NCBI RefSeq assembly: GCF_013155295.1 | Contig: NZ_JABJXT010000001.1 | Location: 372,001 to 436,000, forward strand | Source: Pseudogemmobacter hezensis | Lineage (GTDB): Bacteria > Pseudomonadota > Alphaproteobacteria > Rhodobacterales > Rhodobacteraceae | Direction of reading: 5' to 3' | Length of the DNA: 64,000 nucleotides | Shown here: piece after piece, positions 11,790 to 29,691 of the stretch | Numbering within the stretch: the stretch's first letter is position 1 | Layout of the letters: each line of letters begins with the position of its first letter | Position numbers and translations under genes: made by a program | The notes under the pieces: generated by a model | Seen by the model: the letters and a program-made list of their open reading frames with translations, nothing else | The model's database searches: none | What the model was told of the DNA's origin: nothing

Positions 11790-12746
11790 ATGGCAAACTC
11801 TTCTGAACTGACGCTGGGTGGCATCCACCACCTGACCGCAATCACCGCCAATGCCCCTGAAAACAAACGGTTCTATACTGAGACGCTGGGGCTGCGGCTG
11901 GTCAAGAAAACCGTGAACCAGGACGATACCTCGGCCTATCACCTGTTCTATGCCGATGGGCTGGCCAGCCCTGGCACCGATCTGACCTTCTTCGACTGGC
12001 CCGTCGGACGCGAGCGGCGCGGCACCTATTCGATCAGCCGCACCGGGCTGCGGATCGCGGCTGACAGCTTTGATTTCTGGGCCGCACGGCTGCGGGGTCA
12101 GGGCCTGGAGACCGGCGCGATCCAGGAGACCGATGGCCGTGTCAGCCTCGACTTCGAGGATCCAGAGGGCCAGCGCTTTCGCCTGACCGCCGATCAGCCC
12201 GGTGAGCCGAACCCCTGGGCGAAAAGCCCGGTGGCTGCCGCGCATCAGATCCGGGGGCTGGGGCCGATCACGATCTCGGTCGCGGATCTCGCGCCGACCA
12301 AGGCGGTGCTGGAGCAGGTGCTGAACATGCGCGAAAGCGGCAGCTATGCCAGCCCCGATGGCGAGGGGGCGGTGCATGTGTTCAGCATGGGCCCAGGGGG
12401 GCCGGCGGCCGAGTTGCATGTGGCGGTCCAGCCTGGCCTGCCGGTGGCGCGTCAGGGGGCGGGCGCGGTGCATCACGTGGCCTTCCGCACGCCGGATACA
12501 CAGGGGATCGCCGATTGGGCAGCACGGCTGAGGGAGTTTCGGATCCCCTCTTCGGGTGAGGTAGAGCGCTATTACTTCCGCAGCCTCTATTTCCGCGAAC
12601 CGGGTGGAAACCTGTTCGAGATCGCCTCGGACACGCCCGGCTTCACCGTTGACGAGCCGCTGGAGAGCCTGGGGGAACGCCTGTCACTGCCCCCCTTCCT
12701 TGAGGGCAAGCGCGAACGGATCGAGGCCGGCCTGAAACCGCTCTGA
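11790..12746 (+). CDS. VOC-family ring-cleaving dioxygenase (MhqO-like)
   Basis: A 318-residue protein of two VOC halves. [10 protein letters not shown] at the N-terminus gives the first metal-binding histidine, AVHHVAFRT near residue 229 the second, and [10 protein letters not shown] near residue 272 the glutamate, so a type I extradiol-like iron or manganese site is complete. The closest named relatives are MhqO-type hydroquinone dioxygenases. AAAGGAGG precedes the ATG at 11790. The divergent LysR gene and the shared palindrome suggest substrate induction. The stop codon falls in the first unit of a duplicated 16-bp sequence (12731-12762). Confidence 0.88.
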
Positions 12747-20084: not shown

Positions 20085-21077
20085 ATGACCGATCCCACGC
20101 CCCGCGCCAGCCAGTATGAAGCCGAGGCCCTTCTGGCGCGGCTTTTCGGCGCATCGGGGCATTTGTGGAGCGTGGGAACCCTGCAGGCCTTTATCGGGAC
20201 TGAGCTGGCCGCCCCTTCCGGCGGCCCCATCAGCGATGTGCCCAGGTCAGCGGGCGATGAGGTGGTGATCGGGGATGCCATGACACAGGCCAGGACACGG
20301 GCCAGGCTGCGACCGGGGGCGCGGCTTCTGGCCTTTGAAACGCTCAGCAGCGATCCCAGGGGCTGGAACCATGCCATCGCCCTTTGCGCAACCGATCTGC
20401 CCCCCCGGAGAAAGGCGCAAAGCGCCGCCCTGGCCCTGATCTCCGGTGACGCGGATGCCATCCTGGCGGATCACCGCGACCGGGCCGCGCTTGATCTGGG
20501 GCTGGGCCATCCTGGGCTTTGCGCCCTGTTCCGCCCCGACCCCTTCGGGGTCGCGACATCTAAGGCGCTGATCGGGCAATGCTTTCTCGCGGCAAAGCCT
20601 GCGCTGATGCAGATCGCGGGAACATGGATCGTCGACACGCCTTTCGTTCGGATCGAGGTCACCACCGCGCCGGGCGATCCCTGCCCCCTGCACCATATTC
20701 CCGATCCGCGCGGCCGGACCCATGCCGCGACCACCCCGCTGCCGCCGGGCTGGCTGCCGCTGGCCCATATCTTCCCGCCGCATCCTGCCCGCCTGCGCCC
20801 AGGTGTCAGCCAGGCTTTGGATCATGAAAAGCACCGCGCCTTTCAGGCGATCCTTGCGCAGCATGGCCGCGCCGATCTCTGGGCGCTGAAAACCGCACTG
20901 CGCGCCCAGCTGCAAAGCGGCAGCTTTCAGCCCCCCGATACCGACAGGCATGGCGCAGCCGTGATCCGTGTGGCGCTGCGGCAATGGCTGGCGGAAACCG
21001 GAACGGCCCCGCCCCTGCCCTGGCTTGAACGCTTTGACCGCCCCCTGCTGGCCGCCCTGCGCAAAGAGGGCGGCTGA
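20085..21077 (+). CDS. Hypothetical protein, 330 residues
   Basis: I do not recognise a family. The protein is soluble, without signal peptide or membrane segment, with several His and Cys residues (DPCPLHHIPDPRGRTH) in the middle and a hydrophobic C-terminal helix region. GC-rich third positions support coding. The start at 20085 (MTDPTPR) is chosen because the upstream extension overlaps a promoter-like spacer; its ribosome binding site is weak. It is convergent with the TonB receptor gene, so a shared function is not implied. Confidence 0.65.
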   Translation: MTDPTPRASQYEAEALLARLFGASGHLWSVGTLQAFIGTELAAPSGGPISDVPRSAGDEVVIGDAMTQARTRARLRPGARLLAFETLSSDPRGWNHAIALCATDLPPRRKAQSAALALISGDADAILADHRDRAALDLGLGHPGLCALFRPDPFGVATSKALIGQCFLAAKPALMQIAGTWIVDTPFVRIEVTTAPGDPCPLHHIPDPRGRTHAATTPLPPGWLPLAHIFPPHPARLRPGVSQALDHEKHRAFQAILAQHGRADLWALKTALRAQLQSGSFQPPDTDRHGAAVIRVALRQWLAETGTAPPLPWLERFDRPLLAALRKEGG

Positions 21078-21120
21078 CATCTGGCGCATTCAGCGCATCT
21101 GCCGATCCGCACAAAAGGAA

Positions 21121-21165
21121 ACACCGCCCCCCACCTCGCGGACAGAGCGAGGCAGAGAGCGGTGT
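21121..21165 (-). terminator. Nested hairpin downstream of the TonB receptor gene
   Basis: Outer arms ACACCGC/GCGGTGT (21121-21127, 21159-21165) enclose inner arms CCTCGC/GCGAGG (21134-21139, 21147-21152). Read leftwards the stem is followed by TTTCCTTTT, so it can end transcription of the receptor gene. Confidence 0.6.
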
Positions 21166-21200
21166 CCTTGCAGCCGAATGTGAAGCCGGCTGTGACATTG

Positions 21201-21260
21201 GCCAGACTTCCCGGGGCCAGACTTCCCGGGGCAGAATTTCCCGGCGCCGGACTTCCCGGC
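21201..21260. repeat. 15-bp tandem repeat downstream of the TonB receptor
   Basis: Four imperfect units of GCCAGACTTCCCGGG (21201-21215, 21216-21230, 21231-21245, 21246-21260) lie 24 bases beyond the receptor stop codon. Confidence 0.9.
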
Positions 21261-21284
21261 CAATGCCGTGATCTGAGACCCGGC

Positions 21285-23369
21285 TCAGAACCGGATCGAC
21301 GAGGTCAGATAGAAGCTGCGGCCTTCCTCGGGATAGCCCTCGACCACCGAATAGTTGCGGTCAAAGATATTGCGGACGCCAAAGGCGACATCCGCCTCTT
21401 CGCTGATCTGCCAGGACATATCCAGGTTGGCCAGACCAAAGCCCGACATCCTGGTATAGATCGGCGCATTGCGATTGCCCGAGCCAACGGCCGGATCCGA
21501 CCAGCGCGAGCCATAGATCTCGACCGAGGGCGAGACGGTCAGACGGTCCAGCGCCTGCCAGTCCAGCCGCACATAGGCCTTGTGGCGCGGGATATCGGTC
21601 ACCTGTGCGCCGGTGATATTGTCGTCATCGATCTTGAGATCCATGAAGGTATAGTTGCCGCGCAGGGCCAGGGTGTCGCTGACCTCCCAGCTGGCTGCCA
21701 CCTCAAAGCCCTGGTAAGTCGCCTTCGAGAGGTTCTGACGCTGCGTCAGCCCGCCCGGCTGGCCGATGGCCTGGATCGCGTCAGAGATACGGCTGTAAAA
21801 GACCGCGCCTTCCAGACGAACCGGGCCAAGATCGCCCTTATAGCCCAGCTCGAAGTTCAGCGCCCGTTCCGGCCCCAGATCCGGGTTCGGGATCGTGGTG
21901 CCAAAGCCCGAGGAATAGCGGTGGAACAGGGTCGGGAAACTGGTGCGCGACGAAAGGCTTGCGTGATACTCGCCCCCCGACTGTGGCGTCCAGACCGCCG
22001 CGGCCTGCCAGTTCACCGCATCATGGGTGAAGACAGGCTCTCCGGGTGATGCCGAGGTGCGGTTCGCCTCGATGACTTTCGCCTTTTCATAGCTGAGGCC
22101 CGCAATCAGGCGCAGATCATCGCGCAGGGTCCAGGTGTCCTCGACCGCAAGCGAGATGGTCTCTTCCTTGCTGTGCTCGGTCGGCAGGATGGTGCCGCCC
22201 GACGGATCGCCGGGGCGCTCATGATCGGTGGCGCGGTGGACGTCGCGGCGGAACGAGGTGGCAAAGCGCAGATCATGCTGGCCCAGCGTCACGCCATATT
22301 CCAGGCTGCCGCCCAGCGAATAGTCGTCATAAAAGCTGTTGAAGGCGCGCGGCAGGGTCTGGCTGTCGTGATCAGCATCATCCCAGGCCGAAAGCGTGTT
22401 CTTAAAGGTGTTGTAGAACAGCTTCGTCTTCAGCGTGCCCTCGTCAAGCTCCGTTGTCGAATAGAAGGCAAGGCTTTCGATATCCCATTCCGGCCAGGTC
22501 CAGTCGCGCTGACCGCCCCGGGTGACCGGATAGCCCATCACCGGCAAAAGCGTGCTGTAGGGGGCGGATTTCTCGCCTTCCTGGCGGGTGTAGCTGAGGA
22601 CATATTCGTCGGTCGCATTGGGGGTATAGCCCAGCTTCAGGTTCAGACGGCTGTCATCGGTGGCGCTGTCACGGCGCAGACCCTCGCCCTGATAAGGGAA
22701 GGCGGGATCGGGCTGATAGTCGCGCGAGAGGTAATAGCCATCGCTGTCGCGGCGCATATAGGACAGCTGACCATACCAGAATTCCTGCTTCGTCCCCAGC
22801 GAGACATAGCCGTTGCGCCCGGTGACATCGCCGCGGTTCCCGGCCTCAAGGCCAAGCCGCGCCTCGCCCTCAAAGGCTTTGGTCGGTTTACGGGTCACAA
22901 GGTTGATCGCGCCACCCATGCCGCCCGGGCCGTTGATCACCGAGACATAGCTTTTCTGCACCTGGATCTCGGCCAGATCCGGGGTCAGGAAACGGCCGTG
23001 ATCCAGGCGGTTGTCGGCGGGCAGATAGATGCGGATGCCGTCAATCGACAGCGGCACATGCCAGCGGTCAAAGCCGCGCACAAAGACCTCGCGCTCATTG
23101 CGCGAACCACCGCCCGAGGGCGTGGCCGAGACGCCCGGCAGCACGCCCAGCGTGTCATCCAGCGTGGCGCGGTTCTGGCGCGCGGCCTCGGTGCCGGTCA
23201 CGGTGGTGGTGGTGCCGCCCTGGGCTTCCTCATCCGCGCCCAGATAGATCGTTCCCAGCGAGAAAGCGCGGCTTTCTTCTGCAGGATCAACAGATTGGGC
23301 AAGGGCTGGCAAGGTGGTGATGCCGGGCAGGATCACACCTGCAAGCACCAGACGCTGCAACAAAGACAT
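21285..23369 (-). CDS. TonB-dependent outer-membrane receptor, probably for a molybdenum/tungsten ligand
   Basis: A 694-residue receptor with a cleavable signal peptide (LPALAQ), a plug domain (LDDTLGVLPGVSA to GGAINLVTRKP) and a 22-strand barrel ending in the terminal aromatic FYLTSSIRF. By sequence alone it would be called a siderophore receptor. However, a ModE-like palindrome lies 109 bases upstream, and the next genes form an importer operon with a molbindin and a second ModE-like box, so molybdate, tungstate or a metal-chelator complex is my preferred ligand. AGGAAGGA precedes the ATG. No tonB, exbB or exbD lies in the window. Confidence 0.85.
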   Translation of the reverse strand: MSLLQRLVLAGVILPGITTLPALAQSVDPAEESRAFSLGTIYLGADEEAQGGTTTTVTGTEAARQNRATLDDTLGVLPGVSATPSGGGSRNEREVFVRGFDRWHVPLSIDGIRIYLPADNRLDHGRFLTPDLAEIQVQKSYVSVINGPGGMGGAINLVTRKPTKAFEGEARLGLEAGNRGDVTGRNGYVSLGTKQEFWYGQLSYMRRDSDGYYLSRDYQPDPAFPYQGEGLRRDSATDDSRLNLKLGYTPNATDEYVLSYTRQEGEKSAPYSTLLPVMGYPVTRGGQRDWTWPEWDIESLAFYSTTELDEGTLKTKLFYNTFKNTLSAWDDADHDSQTLPRAFNSFYDDYSLGGSLEYGVTLGQHDLRFATSFRRDVHRATDHERPGDPSGGTILPTEHSKEETISLAVEDTWTLRDDLRLIAGLSYEKAKVIEANRTSASPGEPVFTHDAVNWQAAAVWTPQSGGEYHASLSSRTSFPTLFHRYSSGFGTTIPNPDLGPERALNFELGYKGDLGPVRLEGAVFYSRISDAIQAIGQPGGLTQRQNLSKATYQGFEVAASWEVSDTLALRGNYTFMDLKIDDDNITGAQVTDIPRHKAYVRLDWQALDRLTVSPSVEIYGSRWSDPAVGSGNRNAPIYTRMSGFGLANLDMSWQISEEADVAFGVRNIFDRNYSVVEGYPEEGRSFYLTSSIRF

Positions 23370-23477
23370 TCAAGAATCCTTCCTGTGGCTCGGGATGCGC
23401 GAAGGCCCGCCAGACGGGCACAGGCCTGGCCCTGTCTCAGGGGCAAAGCCGGGGCCGGTCGGCGGAGTTCCGCGAAT

Positions 23478-23501
23478 CGTTATGTATGGTGAAATACATC
23501 G
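23478..23501 (-). promoter_or_regulatory. ModE-like box upstream of the TonB receptor
   Basis: Read leftwards the 24 bases run CGATGTATT, six bases, TACATAACG. The core is TGTAT-N7-TACAT, one base from the ModE pattern TATAT-N7-TAYAT, and ATGTAT/ATACAT is a perfect palindrome. It has the same length and register as the box at 27200-27223. Confidence 0.6.
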
Positions 23502-23574
23502 AGGCGGGGAAGGCAAGCCATCCGCTGCGCGAGCCCCCCGCCCAGGTTGCCTCAGAGTGGCAATTTGATCACCC

Positions 23575-24360
23575 TCAGTAGAACAGCCTGCGGCCATCCG
23601 GGCTGATCGCCTGGCGCACGGGGGTGCCGTAAAGGCGCGAAAGCGTCTCGGCCTGCAAGACCTGCGCGGCGGGGCCTGATGCGACCACCCCGCCCCGGTT
23701 GATCAGCAGCGCATGGCTGGAAAGCGCCGCCGCATGATCGGGATCATGGGTCGAAAGGATCACCGGCGTGCCCTCGCCCGCCAGCCGCCGGATCGCCTCT
23801 GAGACCTGGGCGCGATTGGCGAAATCGAGGCTGGCGGTCGGCTCGTCCATCACCAGTCCGCCCGCGCCCTGGGCCAGCGCACGGGCGATCAGCACCATCT
23901 GGCGCTGGCCGCCCGACAGCCGGGTGACATCGCGCCTGGCCAGATCTGAGATGCCCAGCCGTTCCAGCGCCTCATGCGCCTTTGCCTCTTCGCGGGGACC
24001 AGGGCGGGCCAGCCCCGAAAGCCGCGCCGCCGCCCCCATCAGCACGATATCAAAGGCGCTATAGGCGAAAGGCGGCTGCAGCGATTGCGGCACATAGGCC
24101 AGATGCCGGGCGATCCGCGCCCGGCCCAGCAGGGCCAGATCGCTGCCGCCAAGGGTGATCTTGCCTGCAAGCGGCGGGATCAGCCCCAGCAGCGTGCGAA
24201 ACAGCGTGGTTTTCCCCGCGCCATTCGGGCCCAGCAGGCAGAGAACCTGGCCCGCCGCCAGCGTCAGATCAATGCCTGTGATCAGCGCCTCGCGTCCGTG
24301 GCCGATGCTCAGCCCCTGCGCCTGCAGCAGCGGTTGACGCGTCTGTGTCACAGGCTCCAT
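23575..24360 (-). CDS. ABC transporter ATP-binding protein (FecE/BtuD type)
   Basis: A 261-residue ATPase with Walker A GPNGAGKTTL, signature LSGGQRQM, Walker B LVMDEPTASLDF and the switch His in STHDPDHA. It powers import by the FecCD permease encoded just upstream; the two reading frames overlap by 13 bases, so they are co-translated. The type is that of iron-siderophore, B12 and MolBC molybdate importers. The molbindin gene at the head of the operon and the ModE-like box favour molybdate or tungstate. Confidence 0.9.
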   Translation of the reverse strand: MEPVTQTRQPLLQAQGLSIGHGREALITGIDLTLAAGQVLCLLGPNGAGKTTLFRTLLGLIPPLAGKITLGGSDLALLGRARIARHLAYVPQSLQPPFAYSAFDIVLMGAAARLSGLARPGPREEAKAHEALERLGISDLARRDVTRLSGGQRQMVLIARALAQGAGGLVMDEPTASLDFANRAQVSEAIRRLAGEGTPVILSTHDPDHAAALSSHALLINRGGVVASGPAAQVLQAETLSRLYGTPVRQAISPDGRRLFY

Positions 24361-25364
24361 CTGCGTGCCCCCCTGGCCAGCAGCACCACGAAAACCGGCG
24401 CGCCCAGCACGGCTGTCAGAATTCCCAGAGGCACCTCGATCAGCGCGATGGAACGGGCGGCGGTGTCAACCAGCACCATGAACCCCGCCCCGATCAGCAG
24501 CGCCGCAGGCAGCATCCGGTCAAAGCGCGGCCCCGCCGCCAGCCGCGCCATATGCGGCACCATCAGCCCGATCCAGCCGATCACCCCCGCCAGCGCCACC
24601 GCCGAAGCCGTCATCAGCGTGGCCGCAGCGATCACGATCAGCCGCAGCCGCCCGGCCTCAACCCCCATAGCGCGGGCCTCGTCATCGCCCATCGCCAAAA
24701 GGCCGATCCGCCAGCGCAGCGCGATCAGCGGCACCAGCCCCAGCAGGATCGCCGGCGCCGCCGCCATCAGATCCAGCCGTTTGACACCCGCCAGACTGCC
24801 CATCAGCCAGAAGGTGATCGCGGGCAGTTGCTCGTCCGGGTCGGCCAGCAGTTTCACCAGCGAGATCCCTGCCCCCACCAGCGCCCCGATCACGATGCCG
24901 CAAAGCACCATGACCAGAAGCTGCGCGCCCCCGCGCAGGGCAAGGCTTAAGCCCATCACCAGCGCGACCGTGCCCAGGCCAAAGCCAAAGCCCATCGCCT
25001 GGATCATCATCACCGGCAGGCCCAACAAGATCCCCAGCACCGCGCCAAACCCCGCCCCCGCCGAGACGCCCAGAATATCGGGCGAGACCAGCGGGTTGCG
25101 AAACACCGTCTGATAGGCCGCCCCCGCCGCCGCCAGCGCAGCCCCGATCAGCGCGGCTGAAACAACGCGCGGGCCGCGGATATTCCGCAAGACCGTATAG
25201 GCGCGGGGATCAGGCTCAGTGCCGGTCAGAACGCCAAGGATCTGCCCCGGCGTCAGCGGATAGGGCCCGATTGCAAAGCCCAGGGCCATCACCAGGAGCA
25301 GCGCAAAACCCAGCCCCGCCAATGAGACCGCAAATGAGGCCGCCAGTGAAAAAGAAAGACGCAT
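24348..25364 (-). CDS. FecCD-type ABC transporter permease
   Basis: A 338-residue permease with about ten hydrophobic helices. Signature segments are RGPRVVSAALIGAALAAAGA, where the family has R-PR-----GA-LA-SGA, then NPLVSPDILGVSAGAGFG, and GFIGLMVPH-like IGWIGLMVPHMAR. These mark the BtuC/FecCD family of type II importers, which includes the molybdate permease MolB of Haemophilus. It forms the channel in the inner membrane with the ATPase encoded next. The stop of the binding protein lies 14 bases upstream. Confidence 0.9.
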   Translation of the reverse strand: MRLSFSLAASFAVSLAGLGFALLLVMALGFAIGPYPLTPGQILGVLTGTEPDPRAYTVLRNIRGPRVVSAALIGAALAAAGAAYQTVFRNPLVSPDILGVSAGAGFGAVLGILLGLPVMMIQAMGFGFGLGTVALVMGLSLALRGGAQLLVMVLCGIVIGALVGAGISLVKLLADPDEQLPAITFWLMGSLAGVKRLDLMAAAPAILLGLVPLIALRWRIGLLAMGDDEARAMGVEAGRLRLIVIAAATLMTASAVALAGVIGWIGLMVPHMARLAAGPRFDRMLPAALLIGAGFMVLVDTAARSIALIEVPLGILTAVLGAPVFVVLLARGARRWSL

Positions 25365-25378
25365 CCCGGATCCGCGCC

Positions 25379-26425
25379 CTATTGGCCCAGCAAGGCGTCC
25401 AGCCCGGCCTCATCGGGGGTGACCTGGTAGAACAGCGTATAGAAATCGCGGATCTCTTCGCGCAGATCGCCGCTTGCCTGATCGGGATAGAAAAGATGCG
25501 CCAGATATTTCAGCCCGATCAGCCGATTGACCGAGGGCGGGGCGTCGATAAAGCCGAAAGGCTGCGCGGGCACCAGATAGACCCGCCCCTGATCCACCGC
25601 CGGAATGCCCTGCCATTCCGGCATCTGCGCCACACGCTCGGGGAAGCCGGGCTCGACGGTCAGGATGATATCGGGGGCCCAGGCCTGGATCTGCTCGGGC
25701 GAGACGGTGACAAGGCCGCGCGTCTCGGCCTCGACAACATTGGTGCCGCCCATCCGCTCAATGATCTCGGCATTGATAGAGCCACGCGCCGGGCTTTCCA
25801 GCCCCTCAGGGCCACGCGCCAGATAGACGCGGGGGCGGTCGGCCTGCGGGATCTGCGCCAGCAGGGCATCGGCCTCGGCATAGGTGGCCTCGGCATAGGC
25901 GGCCAGCGCCTCGCCGCGATCAGGCACCTGCAAGACCGCCGCCAGCTGCCGGATCGCCTGCGGCGTGGCCGCGAAACTGCCGTCGATCAGCAGATAGGGC
26001 AGCCCGGCCTGATCCTCGATCCGGGTGGCAAGGTCGCGGTAGGTGTCATTGACGGTGCCGAAATCGACGATCAGCTGCGCGTCGGTGGTCAGCAAAACCT
26101 CAAGGTTCAGCGTGTCGCCCTTGCCCGTCAGCCGCCCCAAAGCGGGCAGATCGCGGGTCTGGGGCAAGAGATAGGGCAGATCCCCGGCCTTCGGGGCCAT
26201 GACCCAGCCGACCATCGCCTCGGGCTTTAACGCATATAGCAGCACCGAGGCGGGCGGCCCGGCGGCAAAGACCCGGGCCGGATCGGCTGGCACCAGAACC
26301 TGGCGTCCAGTGGCGTCCTGGACGGTCTGGCCGTCAAAGGCCCGGGCGGGCGCGGCAAAGCCGATCAGCCCAGCCAGCAGCGGCACCATGGCCGCACCAA
26401 AGACACGCCGGGTCAGTAAACTCAT
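25379..26425 (-). CDS. Periplasmic substrate-binding protein of the FecCD-type importer
   Basis: A 348-residue binding protein with a Tat- or Sec-like signal peptide (LLTRRVFGAAMVPLLAG, ending ARA at about residue 29) and the two-lobe fold of the BtuF/FhuD/MolA group (cluster A-II). LNLEVLLTTDAQLIVDFG and LESPARGSINAEIIERMGG fit the family. It should carry the ligand from the TonB receptor to the permease. The start codon overlaps the stop of the TrmO-like gene as ATGA, so translation is coupled. Ligand identity is inferred from the operon only. Confidence 0.88.
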   Translation of the reverse strand: MSLLTRRVFGAAMVPLLAGLIGFAAPARAFDGQTVQDATGRQVLVPADPARVFAAGPPASVLLYALKPEAMVGWVMAPKAGDLPYLLPQTRDLPALGRLTGKGDTLNLEVLLTTDAQLIVDFGTVNDTYRDLATRIEDQAGLPYLLIDGSFAATPQAIRQLAAVLQVPDRGEALAAYAEATYAEADALLAQIPQADRPRVYLARGPEGLESPARGSINAEIIERMGGTNVVEAETRGLVTVSPEQIQAWAPDIILTVEPGFPERVAQMPEWQGIPAVDQGRVYLVPAQPFGFIDAPPSVNRLIGLKYLAHLFYPDQASGDLREEIRDFYTLFYQVTPDEAGLDALLGQ

Positions 26426-26928
26426 GGAATTGCTCCGAATTCGCCTTTGATATCCAGCAGCGGCGTGCCGTCGACACAGTCGAGGCCGCGCACCACCAGC
26501 TCTGCGCCCTCGACGCGCAACAGCCGCACCACCGTCGCCGCAATCGGATTGGGCCGGACCGGAGAGCGCAGCGAGAATGTCCCCACCGAGGCGTCGCCGA
26601 AATTCGGGTTTTGCAAAACCAGATCGCGGCGCGACAGATGCATCCAGTATAAAAGCTGGATCCGCGCGCGCCCCGCGACACCTGCGAGCCCGTCGATCCA
26701 GCGCGGGTCCAACTGCACCCGGCAGTCGGGGCCATTTTCAGGATCGCCGCGTCGCGGGCACTGGCTGCGCTCAGTCCAGGGGGTGCGCAGCCGCCCGATA
26801 AACCAGACCGAGGCGTCAAACTGCGCGGGCAGGCTGACCGCCCTCTCATGCGGGCGCAGCGCGTCGCGGCCCTCATCCTGGCCCCCGTTATGCCCCCCGG
26901 AAAGGGCCAGATCCGGCACTTCGGTCAT
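26422..26928 (-). CDS. TsaA/TrmO-family SAM-dependent methyltransferase-like protein
   Basis: A 168-residue protein of the TsaA/YaeB (TrmO) beta-barrel family. The diagnostic block is SLRSPVRPNPIAATVVRLL followed by VRGLDCVDGTPLLDIKG. E. coli TrmO methylates the N6 of threonylcarbamoyladenosine 37 in tRNA, but many TsaA proteins occur in metal and cofactor operons with other, unknown roles. Here it sits between a molbindin and a metal-type importer, so a role in molybdenum or tungsten handling is possible. It ends earlier than TrmO, without the second domain. Four bases separate it from mop. Confidence 0.8.
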   Translation of the reverse strand: MTEVPDLALSGGHNGGQDEGRDALRPHERAVSLPAQFDASVWFIGRLRTPWTERSQCPRRGDPENGPDCRVQLDPRWIDGLAGVAGRARIQLLYWMHLSRRDLVLQNPNFGDASVGTFSLRSPVRPNPIAATVVRLLRVEGAELVVRGLDCVDGTPLLDIKGEFGAIP

Positions 26929-26932
26929 CGGC

Positions 26933-27142
26933 TCAGTCCTCGATGCCGATCATCACATCCGAGGCCTTGATCACCGCCGAGGCCTTTGCGCCCACCTTTA
27001 GCCCCAGCTCTGCCACCGCCTCATTGGTGATCGCCGCCGTCACCACAGAGCCGCCCAGATCCAGGCGCACATGACTGGTTACCGCCCCGGTCACGATCTC
27101 GATCACGGTGCCCGGCAGGACATTTCTTGCGCTCAGTTTCAT
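26933..27142 (-). CDS. mop: Molbindin (Mop/TOBE-domain molybdate-binding protein)
   Basis: A 69-residue single Mop domain: MKLSARNVLPGTV, then the oxyanion-binding loop region TSHVRLDLGG, and a C-terminal VIKASDVMIGIE. Such molbindins assemble as hexamers and store or buffer molybdate and tungstate. The start at 27142 has GGAG upstream and matches the family length; the frame remains open to 27202 through a 12-bp repeat. It is the first gene of the importer operon, directly behind a ModE-like box, which is the strongest clue to the transported substrate. Confidence 0.9.
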   Translation of the reverse strand: MKLSARNVLPGTVIEIVTGAVTSHVRLDLGGSVVTAAITNEAVAELGLKVGAKASAVIKASDVMIGIED

Positions 27143-27153
27143 CTTTGGCTCCG

Positions 27154-27177
27154 TCGGTTGGGGTGTCGGTTGGGGTG
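27154..27177. repeat. 12-bp duplication in the mop leader
   Basis: TCGGTTGGGGTG occurs twice in tandem (27154-27165, 27166-27177) between the ModE-like box and the mop start codon. Confidence 0.9.
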
Positions 27178-27199
27178 GCACATCGGGCGGGAAAAGCCT

Positions 27200-27223
27200 C
27201 ATTATGTATCATGATATATAACG
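27200..27223 (-). promoter_or_regulatory. ModE-like box (Mo-box) of the mop-importer operon
   Basis: Read leftwards the site is CGTTATATA, TCATGA, TACATAATG. It contains TATAT-N7-TACAT, an exact match to the ModE core TATAT-N7-TAYAT, with CGTTA-type flanks as in ModE operators. It lies 58 bases before mop. Repression by a molybdate-bound ModE/MopA-type regulator encoded elsewhere is the likely mode. Confidence 0.75.
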
Positions 27224-27388
27224 CAGCAGGCGACAAGGTCCGCCTGACTGACAAAACACCGGGGCAAAAGCGCATAGTTCTGCAACTGGCCACCCGGGCG
27301 GCGGCATGAATTGCTGTGGCGAAAATAGGCGTTTTGCCCGGCGCATGCCTCTGCCACAATGATGCAAACAGGGGAGATGACCGGGCAA

Positions 27389-28153
27389 ATGCGTCTGGCG
27401 CTGATCAGCGACATCCATGGCAATCGTGAGGCGCTTGAGGCGGTGCTGTCTGACGCCGCCGCCCGGCAGATCAGCCACTTTGTGGTGCTGGGCGATATCG
27501 TCGGCTATGGCCCCGACCCCGCCTGGTGTGTCGAACGCGTTATGGCATTGGCAAAGGCGGGGGCGGTGGTGATCCGTGGCAATCATGATGCCGCGATTGC
27601 AGAGGGCGGGCGCGACATGAACCCCCAGGCCCGCGCCGCAATCGACTGGAGCCGCCCGCGCCTGACGCAGACACAGCGCGACTGGCTGGCCACCCTGCCG
27701 CTGACGCAGCGAGAGGGGGAGATCCTTTTCACCCATGCCTCGGCGCATAGCCCCGGCGACTGGATCTATGTCACCTCGGGGCGCGATGCGATGGCCAGTT
27801 TCCGCAGCTCTGACGCCAGGGTGATCTTTTGCGGCCATGTCCATATCCCGGCGCTTTACAGCTGCGATCTGGTCGGGCGCGTGCATGACCATCAGATCGC
27901 GGCGCAGGTGGCGTCAGGCAATGCGCTGCCGCTTTTGCCCTCGCGCCGCTGGCTGGCGGTGCTGGGCGCGGTGGGCCAGCCGCGTGATGGCAGCCCCGCT
28001 GCGGCCTGGGCGATCTTTGACCGCGACCGCCAGGAGATCAGCTTTCGTCGCACCGCCTATGATCACGCGCTGACCGCCCGCAAGCTGCGCGGCTCTGACC
28101 TGGCCCCGGCCATAGCAGAGGCATTGGCCGAACGCCTGAGGGAGGGACAATGA
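27389..28153 (+). CDS. Calcineurin-like metallophosphoesterase
   Basis: A 254-residue phosphoesterase with the family motifs in order: SDIHGN at the N-terminus, GDIVGYGP, GNHD, THASAH and GHVH. All metal ligands are present, so it is probably active against a phosphoester or phosphoprotein. The MRLALISD start at 27389 fits the fold; earlier in-frame ATGs at 27359 and 27377 are possible, with AGGGGAG just before the latter. The stop codon overlaps the start of a Ser/Thr kinase gene as ATGA, so phosphatase-like and kinase proteins are made together. Confidence 0.85.
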   Translation: MRLALISDIHGNREALEAVLSDAAARQISHFVVLGDIVGYGPDPAWCVERVMALAKAGAVVIRGNHDAAIAEGGRDMNPQARAAIDWSRPRLTQTQRDWLATLPLTQREGEILFTHASAHSPGDWIYVTSGRDAMASFRSSDARVIFCGHVHIPALYSCDLVGRVHDHQIAAQVASGNALPLLPSRRWLAVLGAVGQPRDGSPAAAWAIFDRDRQEISFRRTAYDHALTARKLRGSDLAPAIAEALAERLREGQ

Positions 28154-29691
28154 ACCAGACCCGGAACCCGCGCCAGAAACGCCCGCATCAGGGGCTGGAG
28201 ATCGACGGCTTCACCCTGGGCGAGATGCTGCACCGGGGCGGGTTCGCCACCATCTGGCAGGTCAGCCACCCCGATCACCCCCGCGATATGGTGATGAAAG
28301 TGCCGACCATCCTGGATGGGGATGACGGCCCGACCATTGTCGGCTTCGAGACCGAGCAGATGATCCTGCCGCGCCTTTCCGGCCCGCATATCCCCGAGGT
28401 GATCGCCATGGGCGATTTCGCGGTGATGCCCTATCTGGTGACCGAAAAACTGCCCGGCGCCTCGCTGCAGGATGTGTTTGACGCGGTGACGGACCGCAGG
28501 CCCATGCCGCTGGAGGCGCTGATCGCCCTGGCCTGCGAAATATCCGCCGCGCTGCATCAGCTGCATTTGCAGCGGGTGATCCATCTGGATCTGAAGCCCG
28601 GCAATCTGATGCGCCGCGCCGATGGCACGCTGGTGCTGATCGACTATGGCCTTGCCCGCCACCTCGACCTGCCCGACCTGCTGGCCGAGGAATTTTCCAT
28701 CCCGATGGGCACCTTCCCCTATATCGCGCCAGAACAATATCTGCGCAGCCGCAATGATCCGCGATCAGACATCTTCGCGCTTGGGGCGATGCTTTACGAG
28801 CTGGCAACCGGGACGCTGCCCTTTGGCCAGACGGTAACGCTCAGGGCGGTGCGGCGCAGGCTGTGGCAGGATCCCGTGCCGCCGATTGCGCTGCGCCCCG
28901 ATCTGCCGCCCTGGCTGCAAGAGGTGATCCTGCGCGCGCTGGAGGTTGATCCGGCGCGGCGCTTCCAGTCCGCCGCGCAGATGCTGTTTGATCTGAGCAA
29001 TCCGACCCAGGTGGCGCTGACCGCCCGCGCCGCAAAGCGACAGGCCGATGGCTGGCGTCTGCGGCTGCGGCGGCGCTGGCAGATGCGGCGGATCAGAGGT
29101 TTCGCGCCGCCACCCGACGGGGCAGGCCTGCCCGATCAGGCCACCGATCAGAGCCTGCAGCCGGCGGTTCTGATGGCCGCCGTTGATCTGGCCCCCGAGA
29201 TGGAGCCCCTTTCCGCCCGCATCCTTCAGGCCATGCGCGAGGTGCTGCATTTCCGCCCCGAGGCCCGTGTGGCCTGCGTCAATGTGCTGCGCAGCGCCCG
29301 GATCGGTCTTGACATCGGCACCGACCAGGACGGCAACAATCTGCATGTGCAGCGCCTTGTCGCGCTGAAGGCCTGGGGCGCGCAGCTGGGCCTGCCCGAG
29401 GGGCGCGTCACCTATACCGTGCTGGAAAGCAGCGACCCCGCCGCCGCTTTGATCGACCACGCCGGGCGCATCATGGCCGATCAGATCGTGATGGGGGCCA
29501 GGGCCAGCTCCAGCCTCAGGCGCTATCTGGGCTCGGTATCGGCCCAGGTGGTGGCCGAGGCCCCCTGCAGCGTCACCATCGTCCGCCTGCCCGCCAGACG
29601 CCCCGAACACGGCCGCCCCGAACCCGACCGCCCCGTATCCGGCTTCACGCCCACACCAGATGCGGCGCCCGATCACGCATCCCCCCCCTGA
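28150..29691 (+). CDS. Ser/Thr protein kinase fused to a universal stress protein domain
   Basis: A 513-residue fusion. Residues 18-285 form an Hanks-type kinase: Gly-rich loop GEMLHRGGFATIW, Lys in VMKVPT, catalytic loop HLDLKPGNLM, LIDYGLAR in place of DFG, and GTFPYIAPEQY. A basic linker follows. Residues 340-480 form a UspA domain with VMGARASSSLRRYLGSVS close to the nucleotide-binding motif of that family. The tail consists of three 15-bp-encoded RPxxx repeats. GGAGGGA precedes the coupled ATG. The kinase may respond to the nucleotide state of the USP domain, and the phosphoesterase encoded upstream may oppose it; both are inferences. Confidence 0.85.
   Translation: MNQTRNPRQKRPHQGLEIDGFTLGEMLHRGGFATIWQVSHPDHPRDMVMKVPTILDGDDGPTIVGFETEQMILPRLSGPHIPEVIAMGDFAVMPYLVTEKLPGASLQDVFDAVTDRRPMPLEALIALACEISAALHQLHLQRVIHLDLKPGNLMRRADGTLVLIDYGLARHLDLPDLLAEEFSIPMGTFPYIAPEQYLRSRNDPRSDIFALGAMLYELATGTLPFGQTVTLRAVRRRLWQDPVPPIALRPDLPPWLQEVILRALEVDPARRFQSAAQMLFDLSNPTQVALTARAAKRQADGWRLRLRRRWQMRRIRGFAPPPDGAGLPDQATDQSLQPAVLMAAVDLAPEMEPLSARILQAMREVLHFRPEARVACVNVLRSARIGLDIGTDQDGNNLHVQRLVALKAWGAQLGLPEGRVTYTVLESSDPAAALIDHAGRIMADQIVMGARASSSLRRYLGSVSAQVVAEAPCSVTIVRLPARRPEHGRPEPDRPVSGFTPTPDAAPDHASPP
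29599..29643. repeat. 15-bp tandem repeat in the kinase tail
   Basis: Three units beginning CGCCCCG (29599-29613, 29614-29628, 29629-29643) encode RPEHG, RPEPD and RPVSG near the C-terminus. Confidence 0.8.

Follow-up and report, generated by a model that had tools for sequence, protein, structure and literature searches.

A TonB-dependent receptor and FecCD-type importer under predicted ModE-type boxes in Pseudogemmobacter hezensis: a likely route for molybdenum or tungsten

Does a TonB-dependent outer-membrane receptor encoded next to a FecCD-family ATP-binding cassette (ABC) importer serve iron uptake, or does it serve another metal? The question is raised by a locus of Pseudogemmobacter hezensis (Rhodobacteraceae) at positions 21285-27223 of a 64,000-nucleotide stretch of contig NZ_JABJXT010000001.1 (positions 372,001 to 436,000, forward strand; the whole stretch is called the window below), for which an initial annotation had proposed molybdate or tungstate rather than iron. 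Our analysis favours that reading. We consider it very likely that receptor and importer, as members of the ModE regulon, together acquire molybdenum (Mo) or tungsten (W) across both membranes; the cargo, Mo or W in bare or chelated form, is deduced from the regulation, the neighbouring genes and the kinship of the importer to MolB and MolA. The gene calls of the initial annotation (receptor, permease, ATPase and binding protein, with an operon opening on Mop and a TsaA-like gene) agree with the Pfam and NCBIfam matches, and the parts of the locus are as follows.

21285-23369, minus strand: TonB-dependent outer-membrane receptor, predicted to take up a Mo/W species (PF00593 151.1 bits, PF07715 50.1 bits)
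23476-23503, unstranded: box 1, predicted ModE-type operator ahead of the receptor (16/20 to the published ModE consensus)
23575-24360, minus strand: ABC ATPase of the importer (PF00005 105.3 bits; 13-base overlap with the permease gene)
24348-25364, minus strand: FecCD-family (type II) ABC permease, MolB-like (PF01032 267.9 bits)
25379-26425, minus strand: Peripla_BP_2 substrate-binding protein, MolA-like (PF01497 69.5 bits)
26422-26928, minus strand: TrmO/TsaA-like methyltransferase (PF01980 87.2 bits, above cut-off)
26933-27142, minus strand: mop, a stand-alone molbindin of about 69 amino acids (TIGR00638 78.3 bits, cut-off 55; the open reading frame opens at 27202)
27198-27225, unstranded: box 2, predicted ModE-type operator ahead of the mop operon (15/20 to the published ModE consensus)

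The genes for Mop, TrmO, binding protein, FecCD permease and ATPase, in that order, form one packed operon on the minus strand (23575-27142) with gaps of 4-14 bases or overlaps between genes, and the receptor gene follows after a gap of 205 bases that contains box 1. Both the plug (PF07715) and the barrel (PF00593) of the receptor exceed their Pfam cut-offs. The methyltransferase matches TrmO_N of Pfam and stays below the TrmO equivalog cut-off (TIGR00104, 80.7 bits vs 93.25). We reset the start of mop from 27202 to 27142, where Met21 coincides with the onset of molbindin homology and has a GGAG-like motif just ahead; box 2 therefore lies about 55 bases upstream, clear of the start codon. A scan of 21000-27500 for sigma-70-like promoters returned 0 against 0.9 expected from shuffles, which left no promoter against which to place the boxes.

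The boxes were scored against the published E. coli ModE consensus, ATCGNTATATA-N6-TATATANCGAT (PMC545781, partial text), which was not fitted to the window. Markov sequence generated with the window's composition (2 Mb) reached 14/20 once per Mb and never exceeded it. Both 24-mers also fit CGNTATRT-N8-AYATANCG with one mismatch each, in identical register. They had been described as ModE-like palindromes of equal length and register, and while consensus and register stand, “palindrome” is generous for box 1, in which 14 of 28 positions are self-complementary (poor) compared with 20 of 28 in box 2 (fair). What marks box 1 as a predicted ModE-type site is its match to the consensus and its register, more so than its symmetry. 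By these upstream sites, operon and receptor would both belong to the ModE regulon, with ModE binding predicted at each. A third window site scores 14/20 to the consensus at 11930-11957.

In the whole 4.6-Mb genome the pattern CGNTATRT-N8-AYATANCG occurs exactly six times at no more than one mismatch, and its reversed control does not occur. The six sites are these.

Site 1: ahead of modA
Site 2: ahead of a DUF2478 gene (PF10649)
Site 3: ahead of a molybdopterin oxidoreductase gene, with a LysR gene opposite
Site 4: ahead of a second molybdopterin oxidoreductase gene, which has an in-frame TGA
Sites 5 and 6: ahead of mop and ahead of the receptor

This count is partly circular because all six sites had been seen before the pattern was fixed. 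Looser patterns are useless for counting, as their reversed controls yield about as many sites or more: a first pattern allowing three mismatches gave 13 sites vs 25, with 6 of the 13 at Mo genes or this system, and one derived from boxes 1 and 2, with 2 window matches vs 0.04 expected, gave 6 sites genome-wide vs 5. An out-of-sample count comes from seven congeners, G001-G007 (G000 denotes this genome, G001-G012 the other genomes of the genus, L numbers locus labels and C contigs), which hold 21 sites (4, 2, 0, 2, 5, 3 and 5), and the reversed control gave four over the eight genomes G000-G007. Eighteen of the 21 lie at the receptor or operon, in the modE-modA gap, at DUF2478 or at orthologues of the two oxidoreductases, and three lie elsewhere (G005 C78, G005 C105, G006 C23), as judged by six query proteins. 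The modE-modA site is kept in five of the seven and is missing in G003 and G004. Outside the family, five genomes together yielded 2 sites vs 7 in the control. The G007 orthologues of both oxidoreductases exceed the cut-off for formate dehydrogenase-N alpha. The in-frame TGA of the formate dehydrogenase alpha gene (L033:1654-3024, G000 C1:296 kb; L190) is trailed by sequence usual in selenocysteine forms.

A candidate for the ModE homologue that the initial annotation had recommended looking for is present: a protein of 126 amino acids comprising the DNA-binding helix-turn-helix (HTH) domain alone, encoded directly beside modA, modB and modC (L045:1405-1785, G000 C12; congeners L198-L202), each of which exceeds an NCBIfam cut-off. 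How a ModE without molybdate domain would sense molybdate is a puzzle already posed for Desulfovibrio (PMC545781, partial text). Mop as the sensor partner of the HTH-only ModE is a weakened candidate, as the ModE domain is present in G003 and G006 with no Mop above cut-off, their Mop-type matches occurring solely inside a long frame of 377-468 amino acids.

Within the genus the receptor is found (E<=1e-30) in 8 of 13 genomes, this one included, and in none of the 47 other genomes of the sample. Related genomes, which the initial annotation had suggested searching for this linkage, again show receptor and importer genes together with mop and ModE-type boxes: the window's gene order is retained in G001, G007 and G012, and the receptor gene is divergent in G002, G005 and G008, where DUF2478 is added and, in G008, no Mop was found. 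The cluster is broken in G004 (L057) and the receptor in G002 (L056), so the system can be lost. TrmO (PF01980) occurs in all eight receptor-bearing congeners and in one of the five receptor-less ones, and this genome's sole PF01980 match is the copy described here; because of this distribution and the single copy, TrmO travels here with the Mo cluster and does not resemble a housekeeping gene. In three congeners (L051:560-5607, L052:1259-6278, L053:1425-6442) matches to two FecCD permeases, an ATPase and a second TonB receptor adjoin the Mo receptor on the opposite strand, and these neighbours resemble an ordinary siderophore system.

To what extent does the arrangement reach beyond the genus? 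A scan of contigs of named genomes confirmed 386 receptor relatives, and the best 80 of the 386 were used for counts of boxes and neighbours; these 80 are not fully independent because near-identical pairs occur among them. Of the 80, 50 have a site of at least 14/20 within the region from -350 to +60 relative to the receptor (at least 15 in 34, at least 16 in 21). Control windows displaced by -3 to +5 kb had such a site in 0 or 1 of 73-80 loci, and 60 scrambled palindromes gave a mean of 1.0 receptors with a site and a maximum of 14. Encoded near the 80 receptors are FecCD (24), binding protein (24), TrmO (23), Mop (18), ModE (13), DUF2478 (12) and ModA (4); 32 have one or more Mo-specific genes nearby (ModE, ModA, ModB, ModC, Mop, DUF2478 or MoaA), and ModD, sought beside the same 80, was found at none. 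The relative in Paracoccus denitrificans DSM 413 (L066) is 59% identical to the receptor, adjoins Mop and has a box of 14/20. Some receptors sit beside mod genes with no FecCD importer, namely L110 (ModE, ModB, ModC), L128 and L134 (both ModE, ModA) and L136 (ModA), and this suggests that plain molybdate may be what arrives in the periplasm; of these, L110 alone has a box of at least 14. Among the ten neighbour proteins of three sphingomonad receptors with strong boxes (L117, L130, L138) we saw second TonB receptors, an MgtC protein, an HTH protein and otherwise proteins without a Pfam match, and no importer.

In an even sample of the phylum, comprising 398 genomes, the receptor profile found matches at E<=1e-80 in this genome and nine more, and in five of those nine a site of at least 14 lies just outside the match. 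In a FastTree tree of the receptors (window -400 to +60) 60 of the 96 non-outgroup rows have such a site and 36 do not, and its starred branches require at least 20 changes between the two labels; the rows include three identical pairs (duplicate congeners) and further near-identical ones, and the place of the gammaproteobacterial rows is unsure because of long branches. Matches occur also in 26 plasmid records, of which we examined ten. The order in E. coli and Proteus is binding protein, permease, ATPase, methyltransferase, modD, receptor, with best boxes at receptor or operon of 18 and 18 in Proteus and 17 in E. coli. The Pseudomonas aeruginosa relative adjoins moaA and narIJHG (best box 17), that of Shinella has the importer and DUF2478 (boxes 17 and 15) and that of Methylorubrum a best box of 17. 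The best box reaches only 13 in Paracoccus aminovorans, where TrmO and the importer are present, in Novosphingobium, where modE is nearby, and in Sphingomonas, and no box was found upstream of the receptor in Bartonella and Azospirillum. As judged from sequence, the receptor system under ModE-type boxes extends across alpha- and gammaproteobacteria.

E. coli offers the cleanest independent case, because the box consensus (PMC545781, partial text) is its own. Among 5,426 complete genomes of the species, 2,102 (39%) carry the modD-bearing operon by megablast with a 6.5-kb query, 2,094 of them with at least 80% query coverage. Its first gene is preceded by a box of 17/20, and its ModD scores 504 bits vs a cut-off of 179. 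In the one E. coli chromosome examined the operon sits between treA and ymgE, where K-12 MG1655 has ycgY. A list of metabolic genes of E. coli O157:H7 names modD, fepC, fecD, fbpA and dha genes and gives them no Mo reading (PMC8046923, partial text); by gene names and neighbours these appear to be the same operon.

The nearest solved sequence to the permease is MolB (HI1471) of Haemophilus influenzae, at 221 bits with the next at 174. The binding protein is homologous to MolA, which follows 4pag and 4ovk among its nearest solved relatives (3psa, phmmer E 5.5e-11), and in its model (predicted local distance difference test, pLDDT, 87) MolA ranks fourth by Foldseek chain and by VIA (Z 26.9, root-mean-square deviation 3.2, 296 aligned); the modelled fold is consistent with MolA and not decisive. 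As a guide to substrate the receptor fold (pLDDT 81) proved uninformative: the best Foldseek match is the copper receptor OprC, receptors for catecholates, citrate and B12 follow at little distance, and copper, catecholate, pyoverdine, citrate and B12 receptors fall within four orders of magnitude of E-value.

Set beside known systems, the locus resembles MolBC-A of H. influenzae (HI1470-1472) in its FecCD-fold permease nearest to MolB and in a binding protein akin to MolA in sequence and fold; it differs in the TonB receptor, Mop and TrmO added under ModE-type boxes, and the binding protein is about 23% identical to MolA in the aligned part. With ModABC and ModE it shares the box type, this genome's modABC having its own box beside modE, but the transporter is of a different class and ModABC is described from the periplasm inward (PMC7759655, PMC4031551, partial texts). 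Gene families and layout are those of TonB plus FecCD siderophore systems, whereas ModE-type boxes and Mo-linked genes stand here instead of iron-type sites. Metal-ion receptors such as OprC share the plug and barrel fold, but identity among the fold matches is 15-18% and the regulon here is that of an oxyanion metal. By description there is a likeness to Azotobacter vinelandii, which in the absence of Mo and V makes three TonB receptors with ABC genes under VnfA1; unlike the present locus those operons are VnfA1-activated, and the partial text of PMC9542535 reports no ModE box for them.

Several observations weigh against an assignment to Mo or W. Five of the 13 congeners are without the receptor, 30 of the 80 relatives are without a site of at least 14 (19 reach 12-13, 11 are lower), 48 of the 80 have no recognised Mo gene nearby, and the Caulobacteraceae receptors beside modE or modA (L128, L134, L136) have no site of at least 14. 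The HTH-only ModE, without molybdate-binding domains, scores 81.4 bits on TIGR00637, below the cut-off of 98.5. As for the binding protein, 4pag and 4ovk are closer to it than MolA is, and the siderophore binder YiuA nearly equals MolA by fold (Z 24-25). H. influenzae MolBC-A is also of low affinity (PMC4031551, partial text), which is odd beside energised uptake at the outer membrane.

Could this then be a true siderophore or iron system in which only the switch is tied to Mo, such as a receptor for molybdate-binding catecholates that is produced under Mo shortage while importing mainly iron? The receptor, permease and binding-protein families are rich in iron systems; by receptor fold the catecholate receptors PirA, Fiu and PfeA (in one entry with protochelin) come near the top, and YiuA comes close to MolA among binding proteins. 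Yet control of the Fur or Irr type, which the initial annotation had named as the sign of an iron system, was not seen: no Fur-, Irr-, Zur- or RirA-like site was found upstream in the window or in the 80 related loci. With the Fur consensus of PMC545781 (partial text) the best window matches agreed at 9 and 10 positions out of 18, and the best in the 80 relatives at 13/18; for Irr and RirA, whose motifs like that of Zur were written down from general knowledge, the best in the 80 relatives was 10/14 each. The receptor also stays below the cut-off of the TonB siderophore-receptor family TIGR01783 (151.8 vs 223.5 bits), the linkage is to Mop, DUF2478, ModE, ModA and ModD, and among the 22 TonB receptor loci of the genome this one alone has a site of at least 14, the other 21 reaching 13 or less (in the one stretch examined per locus, which may not cover the whole upstream region of each). 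We thus regard an iron system as unlikely.

Less probable still is the Mo-regulated import of a compound other than Mo or W, such as a pterin, nucleotide or other cofactor component required when molybdoenzymes falter, on which ModD and the methyltransferases would act. ModD is a relative of quinolinate phosphoribosyltransferase, and TrmO, like the corresponding E. coli protein, is a methyltransferase; a plain oxyanion importer would need none of these. Against this stand MolB as the permease's nearest solved relative and the four receptors beside mod genes without a FecCD importer, which are expected if molybdate reaches the periplasm. That the boxes are not ModE sites or are placed by chance, before an ordinary uptake operon that acquired mop, is very improbable: the looser patterns are no richer than their controls, ModE is HTH-only and the final pattern was set after all six sites were seen, but the out-of-sample congener counts, the unfitted consensus before 50 of 80 receptors vs 0-1 in shifted windows and the modA site beside modE in five of seven congeners all speak against it.

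For a Mo/W acquisition system the following course may be proposed. By analogy with ModE elsewhere, ModE would repress at both boxes and release them under Mo shortage. The TonB receptor would carry a Mo/W species inward through the outer membrane, the MolA-like protein would then ferry it, and the MolBC-type (type II) ABC importer would bring it to the cytoplasm, where Mop may store the metal for cofactor synthesis. The TrmO-like methyltransferase would be an accessory, perhaps releasing or modifying a metal carrier; its putative counterpart in E. coli and Proteus is another methyltransferase together with ModD, and in many others DUF2478. We tentatively extend this to a widespread TonB-dependent molybdophore system, which seems possible although we would not call it likely: proteobacteria, about two-fifths of sequenced E. 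coli among them, might import chelated Mo or W on their own or a stolen carrier through a ModE-controlled receptor, with the linked methyltransferases, ModD and DUF2478 stripping, modifying or recycling that carrier.

Next to box 2 begins a gene for a calcineurin-like phosphoesterase (27359-28153), and it is followed at 28150-29691 by a gene for a serine/threonine protein kinase domain fused to a universal stress protein domain.

In the open-access literature we found no description of a TonB receptor for Mo or W or under ModE (Studholme and Pau 2003 and RegPrecise lay outside the reach of that search). The text of PMC7759655, on molybdate uptake, has no occurrence of “TonB” or “porin”, and in the partial text of a review of the type VI secretion system (PMC8602904) the sole outer-membrane partner named for molybdate is IcmP of P. 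aeruginosa, a metalloproteinase. Molybdate uptake has been described so far, in the literature examined, from the periplasm inward; the ModE-boxed receptors suggest that many species may spend energy on Mo or W already at the outer membrane. A set of genes now filed as iron or siderophore uptake would have to be renamed, among them those of the operon that 39% of complete E. coli genomes carry and that the model strain K-12 lacks at that place. The system offers an entry to the roles of ModD, DUF2478 and this branch of TrmO, and it makes TonB-dependent uptake of Mo or of a molybdophore directly testable in laboratory strains, for example of Paracoccus denitrificans.

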